A DNA stretch of 55,081 nucleotides from contig JAQYVF010000025.1 in NCBI GenBank assembly GCA_030145625.1, positions 1 through 55,081 of the forward strand, given 5' to 3'. Positions 43,328-47,731 of the stretch are shown here, piece by piece (position 1 is the stretch's first letter; each line of letters starts with the position of its first letter). The notes under the pieces were generated by a model. The model did not search any database. It was not told the DNA's origin and worked only from the letters and a program-made list of their open reading frames with translations. The position numbers and the translations under genes are program-made. Origin of the DNA: Desulfocapsa sp. Its GTDB lineage: Bacteria > Desulfobacterota > Desulfobulbia > Desulfobulbales > Desulfocapsaceae.

Positions 43328-43534
43328 ATGTGTCAGATGAGTGTGTTTGTTGTTGAGAATGAAAAGGAAGAGCTGGTGATGGAAAGCGTTACCAGGTTGG
43401 AAGTCAGGGAGGGGGGGGTTGAGGTCAGTACCTTTTTTGAAGAACCGAAGTTTGTGCCGGGGGTTCAGGTGCAATCCATTGATTTTCTGGCCGGGAAGGT
43501 TTTTGTAGGATCTCTACTTGAGACTTCTAAGTAA
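43328..43534 (+). CDS. CooT-family nickel-binding protein
   Basis: A 68-residue protein beginning MCQMSVFV, with the CooT family hallmark of Cys2 directly after the start Met. In the Rhodospirillum CooT dimer this Cys is the nickel site. The remainder, TRLEVREGGVEVSTFFEEP and IDFLAGKVFVGSL, is the SH3-like barrel of the family. The ribosome-binding site GAGGAG is 7 bp upstream. It follows kdsD by 9 bp and precedes a small protein with a His7 tail. No CO dehydrogenase or hydrogenase gene is in the window, so the client enzyme is unknown. Confidence 0.87.
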   Translation: MCQMSVFVVENEKEELVMESVTRLEVREGGVEVSTFFEEPKFVPGVQVQSIDFLAGKVFVGSLLETSK

Positions 43535-43606
43535 AAACAAATCTGCCTTGTCTTCCGGTCTGTTTTTAAAAAATATATACCACTGGAGTGAGTTGGAGAA
43601 GAACAA

Positions 43607-43864
43607 ATGAATCAGTTAGAAAAATTACAGGTATTGCTTCCACACTGGATTGAGCATAATCGAGGTCATGCGGAAGAGTGTCGAAAATGGACGACTACCC
43701 TGGCAGCAGAAAGTGAAGAAGCGGAAGACGATGTAAGGTCGCAACTTGACGCTGCCCTGCTTGCCATGGAGACTGTTGGGGACTGTTTGGAAAAGGCTTT
43801 GTTGACAGCGGGTGGCGCTAAGAAGGATACAGAAAGCGGTCACCATCATCACCATCATCATTAA
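43607..43864 (+). CDS. Small helical protein with a C-terminal His7 tail
   Basis: An 85-residue protein. The N-terminal LLPHWIEHNRGHAEECRKWT carries three His and one Cys; the rest is two short amphipathic helices. Residues 79-85 are seven consecutive His, encoded by mixed CAC and CAT codons, right before the TAA. The core resembles the small proteins found beside CooT genes in Desulfobacterota (DUF8180-like, by memory). A poly-His tail is a strong nickel or zinc binder, and the CooT neighbour supports nickel storage or delivery. Flanking DNA is ordinary chromosome with no vector sequence, so I read the tail as natural. Confidence 0.78.
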   Translation: MNQLEKLQVLLPHWIEHNRGHAEECRKWTTTLAAESEEAEDDVRSQLDAALLAMETVGDCLEKALLTAGGAKKDTESGHHHHHHH

Positions 43865-43917: not shown

Positions 43918-46389
43918 TTATTCTTCCTCATCATTGGAGAACTGCCACTGTCCATTGGCCGGCGTATAGAGGTAATGCATCTGCAGGCGTATAGGTCTAC
44001 CTCCACTCTCCTCGGTACATTGCATTTTGAATAGCAACTTGCTGCCTATCTTTCTTAAATACTCGACTTTTGGTGAGCTGAGTTCGGAGCGAACGGCAGT
44101 AGGATAGTGTTTGAGGAACATCTTTTTGAAATTATCTCTTAGATATGTGGTTTGGTCGATAATGAGCAGTTGTTTTTCCGCAGCCTCTACCTGGATGGAT
44201 ATTTCCTGAAGAATGATTTGAAATTCAGACTGGTTTGCAAATGGGCTGGCAGAAATAGATTCTTCAATGTTTTGCAGTTTGGCAAGTGCCGGCCTGTATT
44301 TCTCCGATTTGAGGTGCTTGGCCACATCCTGTTTGTCGCGGATGATAGAGGCGTGAAGCATGATACGGGACAGTTTTTCACGACTGTCCTTGGTGTTGAT
44401 CTGGCTGAGAAGTTTGCTGTTTTCTTCCAGGAGAACAATGGCATGTTCATATTGGGTAATGGCATTATCCCAATGCGAGGCAGCAAAGGCCTCTTGGCCC
44501 TTTTCCACAGTCATGTAAATTTTTGTTCTGGCAATGTTTTGGTGCAGGTCGGAAATGGTATCCGATTCAGGCAGTTTCAGTTTTACAACCAGTTCTAAAG
44601 CACGTTCGTAACTATCCAAGGCTGACAGCCATTTATTGTTGTTGAAAAAAGCGTGCCCTTGGTCCCGCAAGGTGTTGAATTTTGCCTGATTGGAGAGAAG
44701 TTCCAATTGAACAATGTCGTCCACTGGGATGTTAGGGTCTGTCTTGGCCAGTTGTAATGCATTACTGAAGTGTTCTGAGGCTCCGTTCCAGTCGGAGGTG
44801 GACAAAGATTTTTCTCCGGCCAGCATAAAAGAGTTTAAGCGGGCATGTGAGAGTTGTTTGTTTATCTCTGTAACCAGGGCCTTGTCGATGGCTGGTGTCT
44901 GTGTCGCAGTTTTCAGGGCTTTTTCGTAATGGGGAATTGCTTCCTGCCAGATTTGTTGCTGAAAGGAATTGTCTCCATTTTTTTTTGCTTCTTTGAACGT
45001 CAGGATTAAATTCTTTGTTGATTCAGAAACAAATTGTCCATCCAGTAATGTGTTGCCTGCCAGTCCCTGGCGAAGTGCTTCTGATACCAGCAGGGTTTGA
45101 ATTTCCTGGCTCAGTTGTTTTTTTTCATCTTGCTTGATCAGTTGAACGCTTGAGATGAGGTCGAGGGCTTCCTCGCACTTTCGCTCTGCGCCACTAAAAT
45201 TATTGGCATCTAACAAAGTACGACATTCGGCAACCTTCTCCTGTGCCTCTTTGAAGCCGGAACCGAGAGAAAAGTAGGAGATAGCTATGGTCGCAAGAAG
45301 GGCCAACGTTCCGCCTCCTATGGCATAGAGTGCCCACCGGCTCCCTCCGATTTTCTTTTCTTCGTAAAAGGTTCTTTCTTGCTTGGGAGAAGAAGGAGAG
45401 GATGCGGCAACTTCGGCAAGTTGTTCCTCTGGCTCCACAGGTTTCTCAGGTGGTTCCATCTCTATATTTTTTTGCCCTTCTCCTGTTACCCAGTCACCCA
45501 TGAGATTCAGGGACTGTTGGACTCTCTCTGTTGCCTCTTCAAGAAGGGGGTAGTCGGCGACCAGTTCGCGAGCGGCCTGATACTTTTCCAAGGCATTTTG
45601 GTGCTCTCCCCGATGTTCAAAATCATCAGCCTCACGGTAGAGCGCCATGGCTGTGTCCATGGCCGTTTGAACCTGTCCTTCCAGTTCCTCGCGTCCATTG
45701 AAGTGGGTGTCAATGGCCTTGAGTTCCTTGGAGAGGGCATGGAAATGTTTTTGTTTGGCTATGGCTCGCAGGCGATCAATGTCAATGGTTGCAGACAGGG
45801 GAGGTGGGGTGTTTTCTAAGGTGGGCTCTTCTTCCTGTTCAAGGGTGAAGGGCTCGCTAAAATCATCATCACTGAGGATGTCGATTTCATCTACTTCTAT
45901 TGCTTCATTTTCCGGCTCCATTGGTGGTGGGGAGGCGGAAAGGGTAGGCTGGTCAAAGGGGAGACGGTCCTTGTGTTCCTGATACCACTCGGCTGCCTCT
46001 TCGTTGAATGCATTGGTGAGTGAGTAAATCTCTCCAGAGATCATGTGGCCGATATGAAGGATGAGCTTGGTAATGGATTGTTCAGCTTGCCAGGCGTCAC
46101 CGATACATATTGCTGAAGAATCAAAATCAGGATGGAAGATGGGGGTTTCCGGTCGACAGTTAGGGGGGAAGTGGGGAAAACCAAAGGGGAGTGATATCGT
46201 AATTACGTGCTTATCGCAAGAACGTACCTCTCCATCTTCTTCCTTGCAGATCCCCTGTATCTGGTAAGTGACTCTGTATTGTTCCGGAGGAGTTCCTTCT
46301 TCCGGAGTTACAGTGATTTGAGGGAGGTCGGCAAAGTGATCTGTTATTTCCTGAAAAACGGTATCGAGTTGCTTGCTAGTATTGCTCAT
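43918..46389 (-). CDS. Membrane TPR protein with N-terminal E2 (ubiquitin-conjugating)-like domain
   Basis: An 823-residue protein with an unusual layout. Residues 1-140 resemble an E2/UBC fold: ISLPFGFPHFPPN, then IFHPDFDSSAICIGDAW (His86, Pro87, Cys95, Trp100) and a following helix SITKLILHIGHMI. The Cys position and the HP-x-C-x-W order match the E2 active site, but HPN is HPD. An acidic, Pro-rich linker runs from 140 to 200, followed by a helical repeat (about 240-300). One transmembrane helix (about 352-374) precedes TPR-like repeats each containing a Trp (FFNNNKWLSALDSYERAL, FAASHWDNAITQYEHAI). No E1, ubiquitin-like protein or deubiquitinase is adjacent. It is divergent from the cyclic-nucleotide/DUF4388 gene. 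E2 activity is unproven. Confidence 0.65.
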   Translation of the reverse strand: MSNTSKQLDTVFQEITDHFADLPQITVTPEEGTPPEQYRVTYQIQGICKEEDGEVRSCDKHVITISLPFGFPHFPPNCRPETPIFHPDFDSSAICIGDAWQAEQSITKLILHIGHMISGEIYSLTNAFNEEAAEWYQEHKDRLPFDQPTLSASPPPMEPENEAIEVDEIDILSDDDFSEPFTLEQEEEPTLENTPPPLSATIDIDRLRAIAKQKHFHALSKELKAIDTHFNGREELEGQVQTAMDTAMALYREADDFEHRGEHQNALEKYQAARELVADYPLLEEATERVQQSLNLMGDWVTGEGQKNIEMEPPEKPVEPEEQLAEVAASSPSSPKQERTFYEEKKIGGSRWALYAIGGGTLALLATIAISYFSLGSGFKEAQEKVAECRTLLDANNFSGAERKCEEALDLISSVQLIKQDEKKQLSQEIQTLLVSEALRQGLAGNTLLDGQFVSESTKNLILTFKEAKKNGDNSFQQQIWQEAIPHYEKALKTATQTPAIDKALVTEINKQLSHARLNSFMLAGEKSLSTSDWNGASEHFSNALQLAKTDPNIPVDDIVQLELLSNQAKFNTLRDQGHAFFNNNKWLSALDSYERALELVVKLKLPESDTISDLHQNIARTKIYMTVEKGQEAFAASHWDNAITQYEHAIVLLEENSKLLSQINTKDSREKLSRIMLHASIIRDKQDVAKHLKSEKYRPALAKLQNIEESISASPFANQSEFQIILQEISIQVEAAEKQLLIIDQTTYLRDNFKKMFLKHYPTAVRSELSSPKVEYLRKIGSKLLFKMQCTEESGGRPIRLQMHYLYTPANGQWQFSNDEEE

Positions 46390-46672
46390 GCTGATTCTTT
46401 AGTCGTATAAGGAGAAGGGGAAGTTGCAGATACCCGGTTTTTTAGATGGATAGAATTTGGCCCCTGCTAACTCCGCATTTTTGGATCGACTGAGCCTGTA
46501 AAGGTGAGTACGATTCGCAACTTCAGACAGTTATCACTTTTTCTATAATTACTTGATAAATATTAATGACTATACCAAGGAGTTCAAGCAAAATACAAAA
46601 AAAATGCTGTATTTATGAAAATAATATATTTTTCACCTCTAGTTACCAAAGAGTGTGGTAAAAGTATAACTA

Positions 46673-47731
46673 ATGAAAGCGTTCAAACTCTATTTTAAGA
46701 TTATTACCGATAATAACTGCCCGCTCTATGAGCGGGGAGAACTCTTATCACTTTCCCAAAAAACCCTCTCCTGTCCGGAGAATAAGGCAACCTGTCTAAT
46801 TCTTGTAAGGGAAATGACAGGACTGCTTTTTCATCTTCTCGATAATACGGAAGAACATGGCGAGAAAGGAAGCGTTTTCACCTGCAGCGGCTGTACAGGT
46901 CTGATCAAATTTGAGCTTATCTCTGAGGAGGATGCCCATGAAGCCGGTCTGATTCCGCCACCTCCTGAACTTGATTCAGAAGCAGAATCCTTGCTGGCCT
47001 GCATCCGTGATTTTCCGATTATTCAGGCAATACCGGAATCGGATCTCGTTCGGGTGGTCCACCGCTTACGCAGGGAGCTGGTCTATTCCGGTGCCACTCT
47101 GATCCATAAGGGACAGAGCTCTCTCTATCTGTATCTGATCCTTTCCGGAAATATGGTGGTCAGTGATGGTTCGTTGGTGATAGCCACATTGAGTCCCGGA
47201 GAAATCTGTGGCGAAATGAGCTACCTTGTGAGTGATGTGGCAGGGGCTGATGTCAAGGCGATCAATGATGCCGAGGTCCTTTCTATTTCCGGAGATGATG
47301 TCAGTAAGCTTCTTGACCGAATTCCCGGGTTGCAGCTATACATGGCTAAGGTCCTTGCCCAGCGATTGAGCCGAGCTAATGTTACCCGTTTTAATACCTT
47401 TGATGCCTGTATGAGTGGCTGGATCGCTGAAATGCCTCCAGCTGAACTCTTCCAGATTTTTCATATGAATAAAAAGACAGGCGTGCTCACCCTTGATTTT
47501 CCCCAAGGCATGGCCAAGGTTTCTTTTCGGGAAGGGTGTGTCATTAATGCTCATTACGGGGACAATAACAACCAGGAGGCCATCTTCGCCATGTTGGGAG
47601 AAAAGGAAGGGCGCTATGCCTTTACTACCGGTCTCTCACCAGAAGAGATGCGCTCTGCTGAAATCGGTGATTTTATGATGCTCCTCATGGAAGGAATCAA
47701 GCGGGTTGACGAAACAGGAGAGAGGGCGTGA
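46673..47731 (+). CDS. Cyclic-nucleotide-binding-like/DUF4388 signalling protein
   Basis: A 352-residue, three-part protein. The N-terminal 90 residues contain Cys-rich motifs (CPLYERGELLSL and FTCSGCTGLIKFE) of a type common in Desulfobacterota but of unknown role. A cNMP-binding-like barrel (about 110-235) has SSLYLYLILSGNM and PGEICGEMSYLVS, but the phosphate-binding Arg is absent (VAGADVKA), so cAMP binding is doubtful. The C-terminal third resembles DUF4388/PATAN (MNKKTGVLTLDFPQG and FREGCVINAHYG), a module in two-component and Mgl-type signalling. There is no ribosome-binding site, so the start is uncertain. It is divergent from the E2-like membrane gene. Confidence 0.72.
   Translation: MKAFKLYFKIITDNNCPLYERGELLSLSQKTLSCPENKATCLILVREMTGLLFHLLDNTEEHGEKGSVFTCSGCTGLIKFELISEEDAHEAGLIPPPPELDSEAESLLACIRDFPIIQAIPESDLVRVVHRLRRELVYSGATLIHKGQSSLYLYLILSGNMVVSDGSLVIATLSPGEICGEMSYLVSDVAGADVKAINDAEVLSISGDDVSKLLDRIPGLQLYMAKVLAQRLSRANVTRFNTFDACMSGWIAEMPPAELFQIFHMNKKTGVLTLDFPQGMAKVSFREGCVINAHYGDNNNQEAIFAMLGEKEGRYAFTTGLSPEEMRSAEIGDFMMLLMEGIKRVDETGERA

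Follow-up and report, generated by a model that had tools for sequence, protein, structure and literature searches.

A bacterial E2 fold on a membrane TPR protein of the Desulfobulbales, probably a binder outside ubiquitin-like conjugation

The gene studied here lies on contig JAQYVF010000025.1 of a Desulfocapsa genome (assembly GCA_030145625.1), in a stretch of 55,081 nucleotides that was analysed as a whole and is called the window below. It occupies positions 43918 to 46389 on the minus strand, begins with ATG and encodes an 823-residue protein, P0001, in which Pfam matches and a full-length model place a ubiquitin-conjugating (UBC, or E2) fold ahead of a single transmembrane (TM) helix and tetratricopeptide repeats (TPRs). 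We consider it rather probable that its E2 part is an orphan of bacterial origin, joined to a membrane TPR protein, and that it works without conjugation of a ubiquitin-like protein (Ubl), as a non-catalytic binder similar to the eukaryotic ubiquitin E2 variants (UEVs). A preliminary description of this DNA had left three options for the domain, namely a stand-alone modifier, a scaffold, or a degenerate UBC fold used for binding; the last two fit the results best, whereas the first finds no support. Beyond that description, the analysis brought out a clade-wise split between Cys, Arg and Lys at this position, an order-wide inheritance that follows families, a divergently transcribed neighbour, and kinship to E2s encoded in Ubl gene runs.

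Residues 1-147 (45949 to 46389, minus strand) form a genuine UBC fold, far beyond what chance would give. The E2 order of motifs first noticed in this region is exact: LPFGFPHFPP at residues 67-76, His86-Pro87-Asp88, Cys95 nine residues past His86, and Trp100. The Pfam model UQ_con (PF00179) scores 28.1 bits against the whole of P0001 and 31.8 bits against residues 1-150, above the curated cut-off of 27, and it finds each of the 28 members of our alignment A1 at E ≤ 0.1. In a phmmer search of PDB sequences the 60 matches listed out of 197 are all E2s, the best being Ubc12 (1y8x, E = 3.5e-5); the alignment pairs Cys95 (codon at 46105 to 46107, minus strand) with the catalytic Cys of these enzymes, the position being followed below in a 116-row family alignment. 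Profile A1 also finds E2s among PDB sequences, with E values down to 6.6e-7. Structure prediction, the check that had been proposed for the N-terminal domain, returned a UBC fold for residues 1-150, with a mean predicted local distance difference test score (pLDDT) of 91.6 and a predicted template modelling score (pTM) of 0.88 in AlphaFold. Foldseek matches it to PDB entries with a best E of 9.0e-7 and a probability of 1.00, the 50 matches listed being E2s or E2-containing entries, and VIA-align superposes it on UBE2S (7ahf; Z 13.9, root mean square deviation 2.5, 128 residues aligned). For the RWD fold the comparison is an indirect one: the Foldseek and VIA-align matches listed are all E2s, and no RWD family stands among the Pfam matches listed.

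The HPN motif of active E2s reads HPD in P0001 (residues 86-88; 46126 to 46134, minus strand), as had been observed from the letters, and Asp holds position 88 in 110 of 116 rows, in the Cys and Arg clades alike. These rows are the 116 matches found in 114 genomes, and they include one broken gene and two second copies, of which one is a distinct E2 from an operon. Position 95 is occupied by Cys in 53 rows, Arg in 48, Lys in seven and Ala in three, with Tyr, His, Pro, Ser and Trp once each. By family, the window's own f1, which is tied to Desulfofustis, has 45 Cys and one each of Tyr, Arg and His (48 rows); f12, tied to Desulfobulbus, has 45 Arg, three Ala and one Ser, with no Cys in its 49 rows; and f3, tied to Desulfurivibrio, has seven Cys, seven Lys and two Arg (16 rows), f6 adding one Cys and the second copies one Pro and one Trp. 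A UBC fold without the catalytic Cys, as in UEVs, is found in 49 of 49 f12 rows and 9 of 16 f3 rows, whereas the window protein itself keeps the Cys. The tree of the E2 domain, which comprises 114 rows and two outgroup rows, contains at least six changes between Cys and non-Cys, read from few columns, with 43 of its 112 inner branches open and with long outgroup branches. Since Cys95 and the HPN Asn are both replaced across clades, neither can be essential to a function common to the whole family, and these alignments do not support a catalytic reading for the family as a whole. Conservation among orthologues had been suggested as a check on the active site: the HP motif stood (His86 in 116 of 116 rows, Pro87 in 115), and the Cys did not, being present in only 53 rows, though in 45 of 48 within f1.

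Judged by sequence identity, constraint is strongest on the E2 domain, Cys or no Cys, and the domain shows no decay. In the Cys-less f12 (47 rows) mean pairwise identity is 0.590 for the E2 domain, against 0.308 for the linker/TPR segment, 0.327 for the TM region, 0.339 for the TPR array and 0.368 for the C-terminal part; the corresponding values are 0.553, 0.240, 0.184, 0.317 and 0.392 in f1 (17 rows) and 0.579, 0.246, 0.269, 0.325 and 0.428 in f3 (13 rows). Residues 701-823 rank second in all three families. The rows were taken from loci L061-L146, leaving out incomplete proteins, those of 550 residues or fewer and second copies, with 31 of the 48 f1 rows unused. The tolerance of Cys, Arg, Lys and other residues at position 95 would suit an E2 fold that is merely a structural cap or dimerisation module, with a former active-site face of no special role. 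We regard this as unlikely given that the E2 domain is far better conserved than the rest of the protein and that residues of the domain are individually kept in 110 to 116 of the 116 rows, comprising His86, Pro87 and Asp88 together with Asp90 (114), Trp100 (115), Asn129 (114), Ala132 (115) and Trp135 (114).

Discussion of bacterial E2s mostly treats them as members of Ubl operons, and a RING/E2/YukD operon type was reportedly described by Burroughs and colleagues in 2011. Among the genomes searched, the closest relative of the domain beyond the order is the E2 of genome G521, from the same phylum, which scores 119.7 bits against profile A1. It is encoded in a gene run (L166, 3904-17842) of YukD Ubl, ThiF/E1, JAB, FHA, Prok-RING_1, E2, DnaJ, AAA and subtilase, a protein kinase gene lying further upstream. 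This E2 reads HPNFNQTEVC, so HPN and Cys are both present, and it has the motifs G-x-PP, (L/I)FHP and N-x2-A-x2-W in common with the window protein; unlike it, the window protein reads HPD, lacks neighbours of this kind and carries the TM-TPR fusion. Scores against the same profile are 108.7 bits for a Cys-less E2-TPR protein of genome G217, 50.1 for an E2 on a Crinalium plasmid and 31.7 for an operonic E2 of genome G120. The Crinalium record, with its E2 between ThiF and Mov34/MPN genes, is the one match of the G521 E2 among plasmids. On sequence grounds the orphan domain belongs with operonic E2s that bear the Cys, and a direction from enzyme to binder would be the parsimonious one. The G217 protein (L167, 6954-10118) has 1054 residues, reads HPN with Asp near the Cys position, and adjoins a TPR protein. 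At L169 (3425-6000) G120 carries genes for an activating enzyme (E1), a small protein of 89 residues to which Pfam has no match, an E2 that bears the Cys, and a JAB protein; the genome belongs to family f1 and also has the E2-TPR gene, at a separate place.

At the window locus the gene set of a Ubl conjugation operon, with Ubl, E1 and JAB beside the E2 as in the YukD/E1/JAB/RING, Bil and Cap2 types, is missing among the genes and ORFs searched. We scanned P0001, four neighbours and the two small plus-strand open reading frames (ORFs) at 43328-43864 with Pfam, checked the two flanking gaps for ATG ORFs of 45-89 residues, and read the other ORFs of at least 110 residues by eye. In agreement with the preliminary description, no E1, Ubl or JAB gene was found adjoining P0001, smaller ORFs elsewhere in the window lying outside this search. 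PADLOC models gave no match to the window protein. Across the source genome there are no Prok-JAB and no YukD matches, and none to the G120-type E1 at E ≤ 1e-25, a threshold that more distant E1s would escape; a JAB, a YukD-type Ubl or an E1 of the cognate type was not found. Across the order, the pathway draws covered 186 genomes (against 193 in the search for the gene itself), and the G120-type E1 appears in two of them at the same threshold, one being G120. JAB was rejected as a marker of pathway co-occurrence, Prok-JAB matching in 127 of the 186 genomes (67 above the cut-off), many of them in families without a listed P0001 match.

The source genome encodes three ThiF-fold proteins, which look like sulfur-carrier or TcdA types; two of the three score below curated cut-offs. 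One (L060) exceeds the ThiF cut-offs and lies within a thiamine cluster (read by eye); the second (L059) has TcdA as its best match, below cut-off; the third, a MoeB/ThiF-like E1 with matches below cut-off (L058, 1110-2127), stands behind an AOR-like gene and the gene of a small MoaD-like protein (by eye). ThiS-like genes were also seen by eye beside E1-like genes. Such pairs could serve an f1 domain that is still a working E2, with Cys95 charged by a borrowed E1 with a MoaD/ThiS-type carrier or an unrecognised Ubl, and with only the Arg and Lys clades dead. The Cys of most f1 rows, the retained His-Pro and the separate E1/89-residue protein/E2/JAB locus of G120, in the same family, speak for it. 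We nevertheless find it improbable, given that Asp replaces the HPN Asn in the Cys clades as well as the Arg clades, the lack of JAB and YukD matches in the source genome, the G120-type E1 in only two of 186 genomes of the order (G120 among them), and the fact that the Cys-less clades retain the same domain, architecture and neighbour.

In G061 a second, 532-residue E2-like copy (L168, 6894-11423), with Pro at position 95 and without the divergent neighbour, follows clpS and a clpA-like gene, a context in which a link to Clp proteolysis is possible. One may envisage from this copy an adaptor role, in which the domain would recognise modifiers or a degron and deliver to a protease, with the membrane TPRs as an anchor, and inactive E2-like domains of bacterial operons have been proposed to bind ubiquitin moieties (PMC1779556). 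The Clp link is, however, seen in one genome only, no clp gene stands beside the main copy in the window (by eye), and these genomes have no known modifier, so we give an adaptor role little chance.

The preferred reading, a non-catalytic binder, concerns a gene that is widespread in the order Desulfobulbales. A match is found in 114 of 193 genomes, 92 of 139 good ones and 31 of 62 genera, with one match per genome in 112 of the 114; the source genome (100 percent complete, 229 contigs) has a single copy, and f1 has a match in 48 of its 52 genomes in that draw. Named relatives (27 loci) include Desulfocapsa, Desulfofustis, Desulfopila, Desulfosediminicola, Desulfoprunum, Desulfobulbus and Desulfurivibrio. 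When the phylum was sampled evenly, profile A1 matched 12 of 395 genomes, ten of them from the order, while the UQ_con model itself matched 7 of 297 phylum genomes in a separate draw, the two figures not being comparable. Beyond the order, G217 is the sole member of its own order in the search, and G521 is the only match in its class (1 of 46). The E2 tree tracks families, with support of 95 for f1 and only 41 for f12, f3 needing two changes. Neighbours conserved across families and an E2 tree that follows them suggest mainly vertical inheritance across the order. Among viral contigs, 62 pattern matches to A1 included no relative, and a plasmid search with the window's E2 domain gave no match.

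The remainder of P0001 bears out the fusion of the E2-like domain to a single TM helix and TPRs that was described at the outset. The full-length AlphaFold model (24 sequences in its alignment) has a pLDDT of 81.3 and a pTM of 0.46, at which the arrangement of domains is not reliable; residues 151-179, 185-199 and 300-353 fall below a pLDDT of 50. On the E2 side of the membrane, residues 204-296 (45502 to 45780, minus strand) make up a helical TPR-like segment, with TPR_12 at 245-278 and helices in the model. Hydropathy identifies a single TM helix at residues 353-371 (45277 to 45333, minus strand): the six highest windows of the whole protein all lie within 352-379, and past residue 150 a value above 1.6 is reached in one region only, in the window protein and all 24 proteins of alignment A2 (the window's included). 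Lys and Arg are in excess on the N-terminal side of this helix in 21 of the 24 (104 against 46 in sum), which suggests an N-in/C-out topology, with a cytoplasmic E2 domain and a periplasmic TPR array. The array, predicted to be periplasmic, spans residues 381-752 (44134 to 45249, minus strand; TPR_2 in Pfam and helix pairs in the model), and in 24 aligned proteins Trp640 is invariant and Trp534 and Trp587 almost so. A C-terminal helix and four-strand beta domain without a Pfam family follows at residues 754-818 (43936 to 44130, minus strand), its strands modelled at 770-781, 784-795, 798-809 and 814-818. NCBIfam gave just weak TPR-type matches to P0001, far under cut-off.

Upstream of P0001, an intergenic region (46390 to 46672) without any ATG ORF of 45-89 residues probably holds the promoters of both P0001 and a divergent neighbour on the plus strand (46673 to 47731). 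By Pfam this neighbour combines a four-Cys domain with cNMP_binding and DUF4388. The four-Cys part is residues 1-85 (46673 to 46927, plus strand), with Cys at 16, 41, 71 and 74, which are kept in 77, 88, 88 and 76 of 89 aligned proteins, respectively (some genomes being duplicated); residues 1-100 have no match in NCBIfam or among PDB sequences. Three of four other partner examples that were read (two from f12 and one from f3 in that set) have about 210-216 residues, too short for the middle domain. The four-Cys N-terminal part has paralogues elsewhere in these genomes, and genome-wide presence of the partner was rejected as a test since this part finds them as well.

In 100 of 116 loci the partner adjoins the E2 gene in divergent orientation (f12 44/49, f1 40/48, f3 15/16, f6 1/1, second copies 0/2), in Cys and Arg clades alike. 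As a control for synteny, we counted other genes in those loci whose upstream flank is long enough: of these 71, the partner is present in 63, HAD in 43, SecDF in 42 and CxxCxxCC in 41. Nine loci that lack the partner were examined. Five of them (L061, L069, L077, L096 and L140) keep three or four of the other neighbours, L061 being cut off downstream, and here the partner gene alone seems to have gone; L141 and L143 have one other neighbour left, and L087 and L144 none (the flanks of L144 are short). We compared partner presence with residue 95 over 114 rows, leaving out the broken gene of G157 and the operonic G120 copy. Wherever the partner is present (100 rows), this position is Cys, Arg or Lys, against 8 of the 14 rows without it, the other six having other residues. 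A Fisher test gives p = 1.1e-6 on the raw rows and 8.3e-8 by clade consensus, a link that does not reach significance with independent pairs (below). This association serves only as a lead that the E2 face and the divergent neighbour may be coupled.

These results suggest how such a pair might work. In P0001 the E2 fold is joined to a linker, the TM helix, the TPR array and the C-terminal beta domain. Most probably it is a docking head without catalytic activity, anchored in the membrane; its former active-site face would have turned into a UEV-like docking surface, with the four-Cys/(cNMP)/DUF4388 neighbour as candidate ligand; and the pair might carry signals across the membrane, linking a TPR assembly in the periplasm with a regulator in the cytoplasm. 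In its fullest form, as a TM receptor inherited vertically across the order and independent of Ubl, whose former E2 domain is a non-catalytic docking head for the four-Cys/DUF4388 regulator with residue 95 (Cys, Arg or Lys) at the partner interface, this proposal is tentative, and we think it more likely to be wrong in some part than right.

Several observations weigh against a non-catalytic binder docked to this partner. The Cys kept in 45 of 48 f1 rows leaves room for a Cys-dependent role in the window's own family. YukD is found in none of the 186 genomes of the order, with a model that is a weak test of absence and scores 0 even for G120, whose 89-residue Ubl-like protein has no Pfam match. 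The evidence for the topology is the charge bias only. The partnership is drawn from gene order, and adjacency in itself is not special, as a SIS-CBS gene on the opposite side is kept almost as often, in 58 of 71 loci with enough downstream flank against 63 of 71. When relatedness is taken into account, independent pairs number two to three against none (p 0.25-0.5), or three to four against none by clade consensus (p 0.125-0.25), neither being significant. Positions Phe128, Phe74, Asp88 and Pro144 follow the same pattern of partner loss, which general relaxation would explain equally well, and eight rows have Cys, Arg or Lys without the partner.

Between the SIS-CBS and E2-TPR genes, the stretch 43328-43864 of the window encodes a protein of the CooT family (62.4 bits against a cut-off of 27), and also holds an 85-residue ORF that ends in seven His and has no Pfam match. 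In 12 of 113 loci an ORF resembling the latter comes first on the downstream flank (by eye).

Eukaryotic UEVs such as Mms2/UBE2V and TSG101 use the E2 fold for binding without a catalytic Cys, and bind ubiquitin or an active E2. The domain described here resembles them in this respect, whereas no ubiquitin or active-E2 ligand is known in these genomes. Among bacteria, Iyer et al. (2006; PMC1779556) describe in their group 6e Cys-less E2/RWD-like domains in poly-Ubl operons and propose them as binders of ubiquitin moieties, and a 2024 review (PMC11354881) restates such domains within Ubl operons. Both they and the present family are bacterial E2-like domains without the catalytic Cys; the group 6e domains sit in operons with Ubl and other pathway genes, whereas ours stands as an orphan on the chromosome, is fused to a membrane TPR protein and shows a clade-wise loss of the Cys. 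BilB and Cap2 E2s have the bacterial E2 fold in common with the window gene and, according to the review (PMC11354881), BilB differs in its CEHH motif and its operon with Ubl and E1. Our search of the open-licence literature (titles and the beginnings of abstracts) found no paper on an orphan E2 fused to TM and TPR segments, which is weak evidence of absence.

For the biology of the group, the E2 fold appears as a resident, usually single-copy gene of a large set of sulfur-cycle bacteria, where it appears to have outlived its pathway. The family offers a natural series of Cys, Lys, Arg and other residues with which to explore the roles of an E2 surface beyond catalysis, and may represent a bacterial parallel to the eukaryotic UEVs, with a candidate partner gene at its side.

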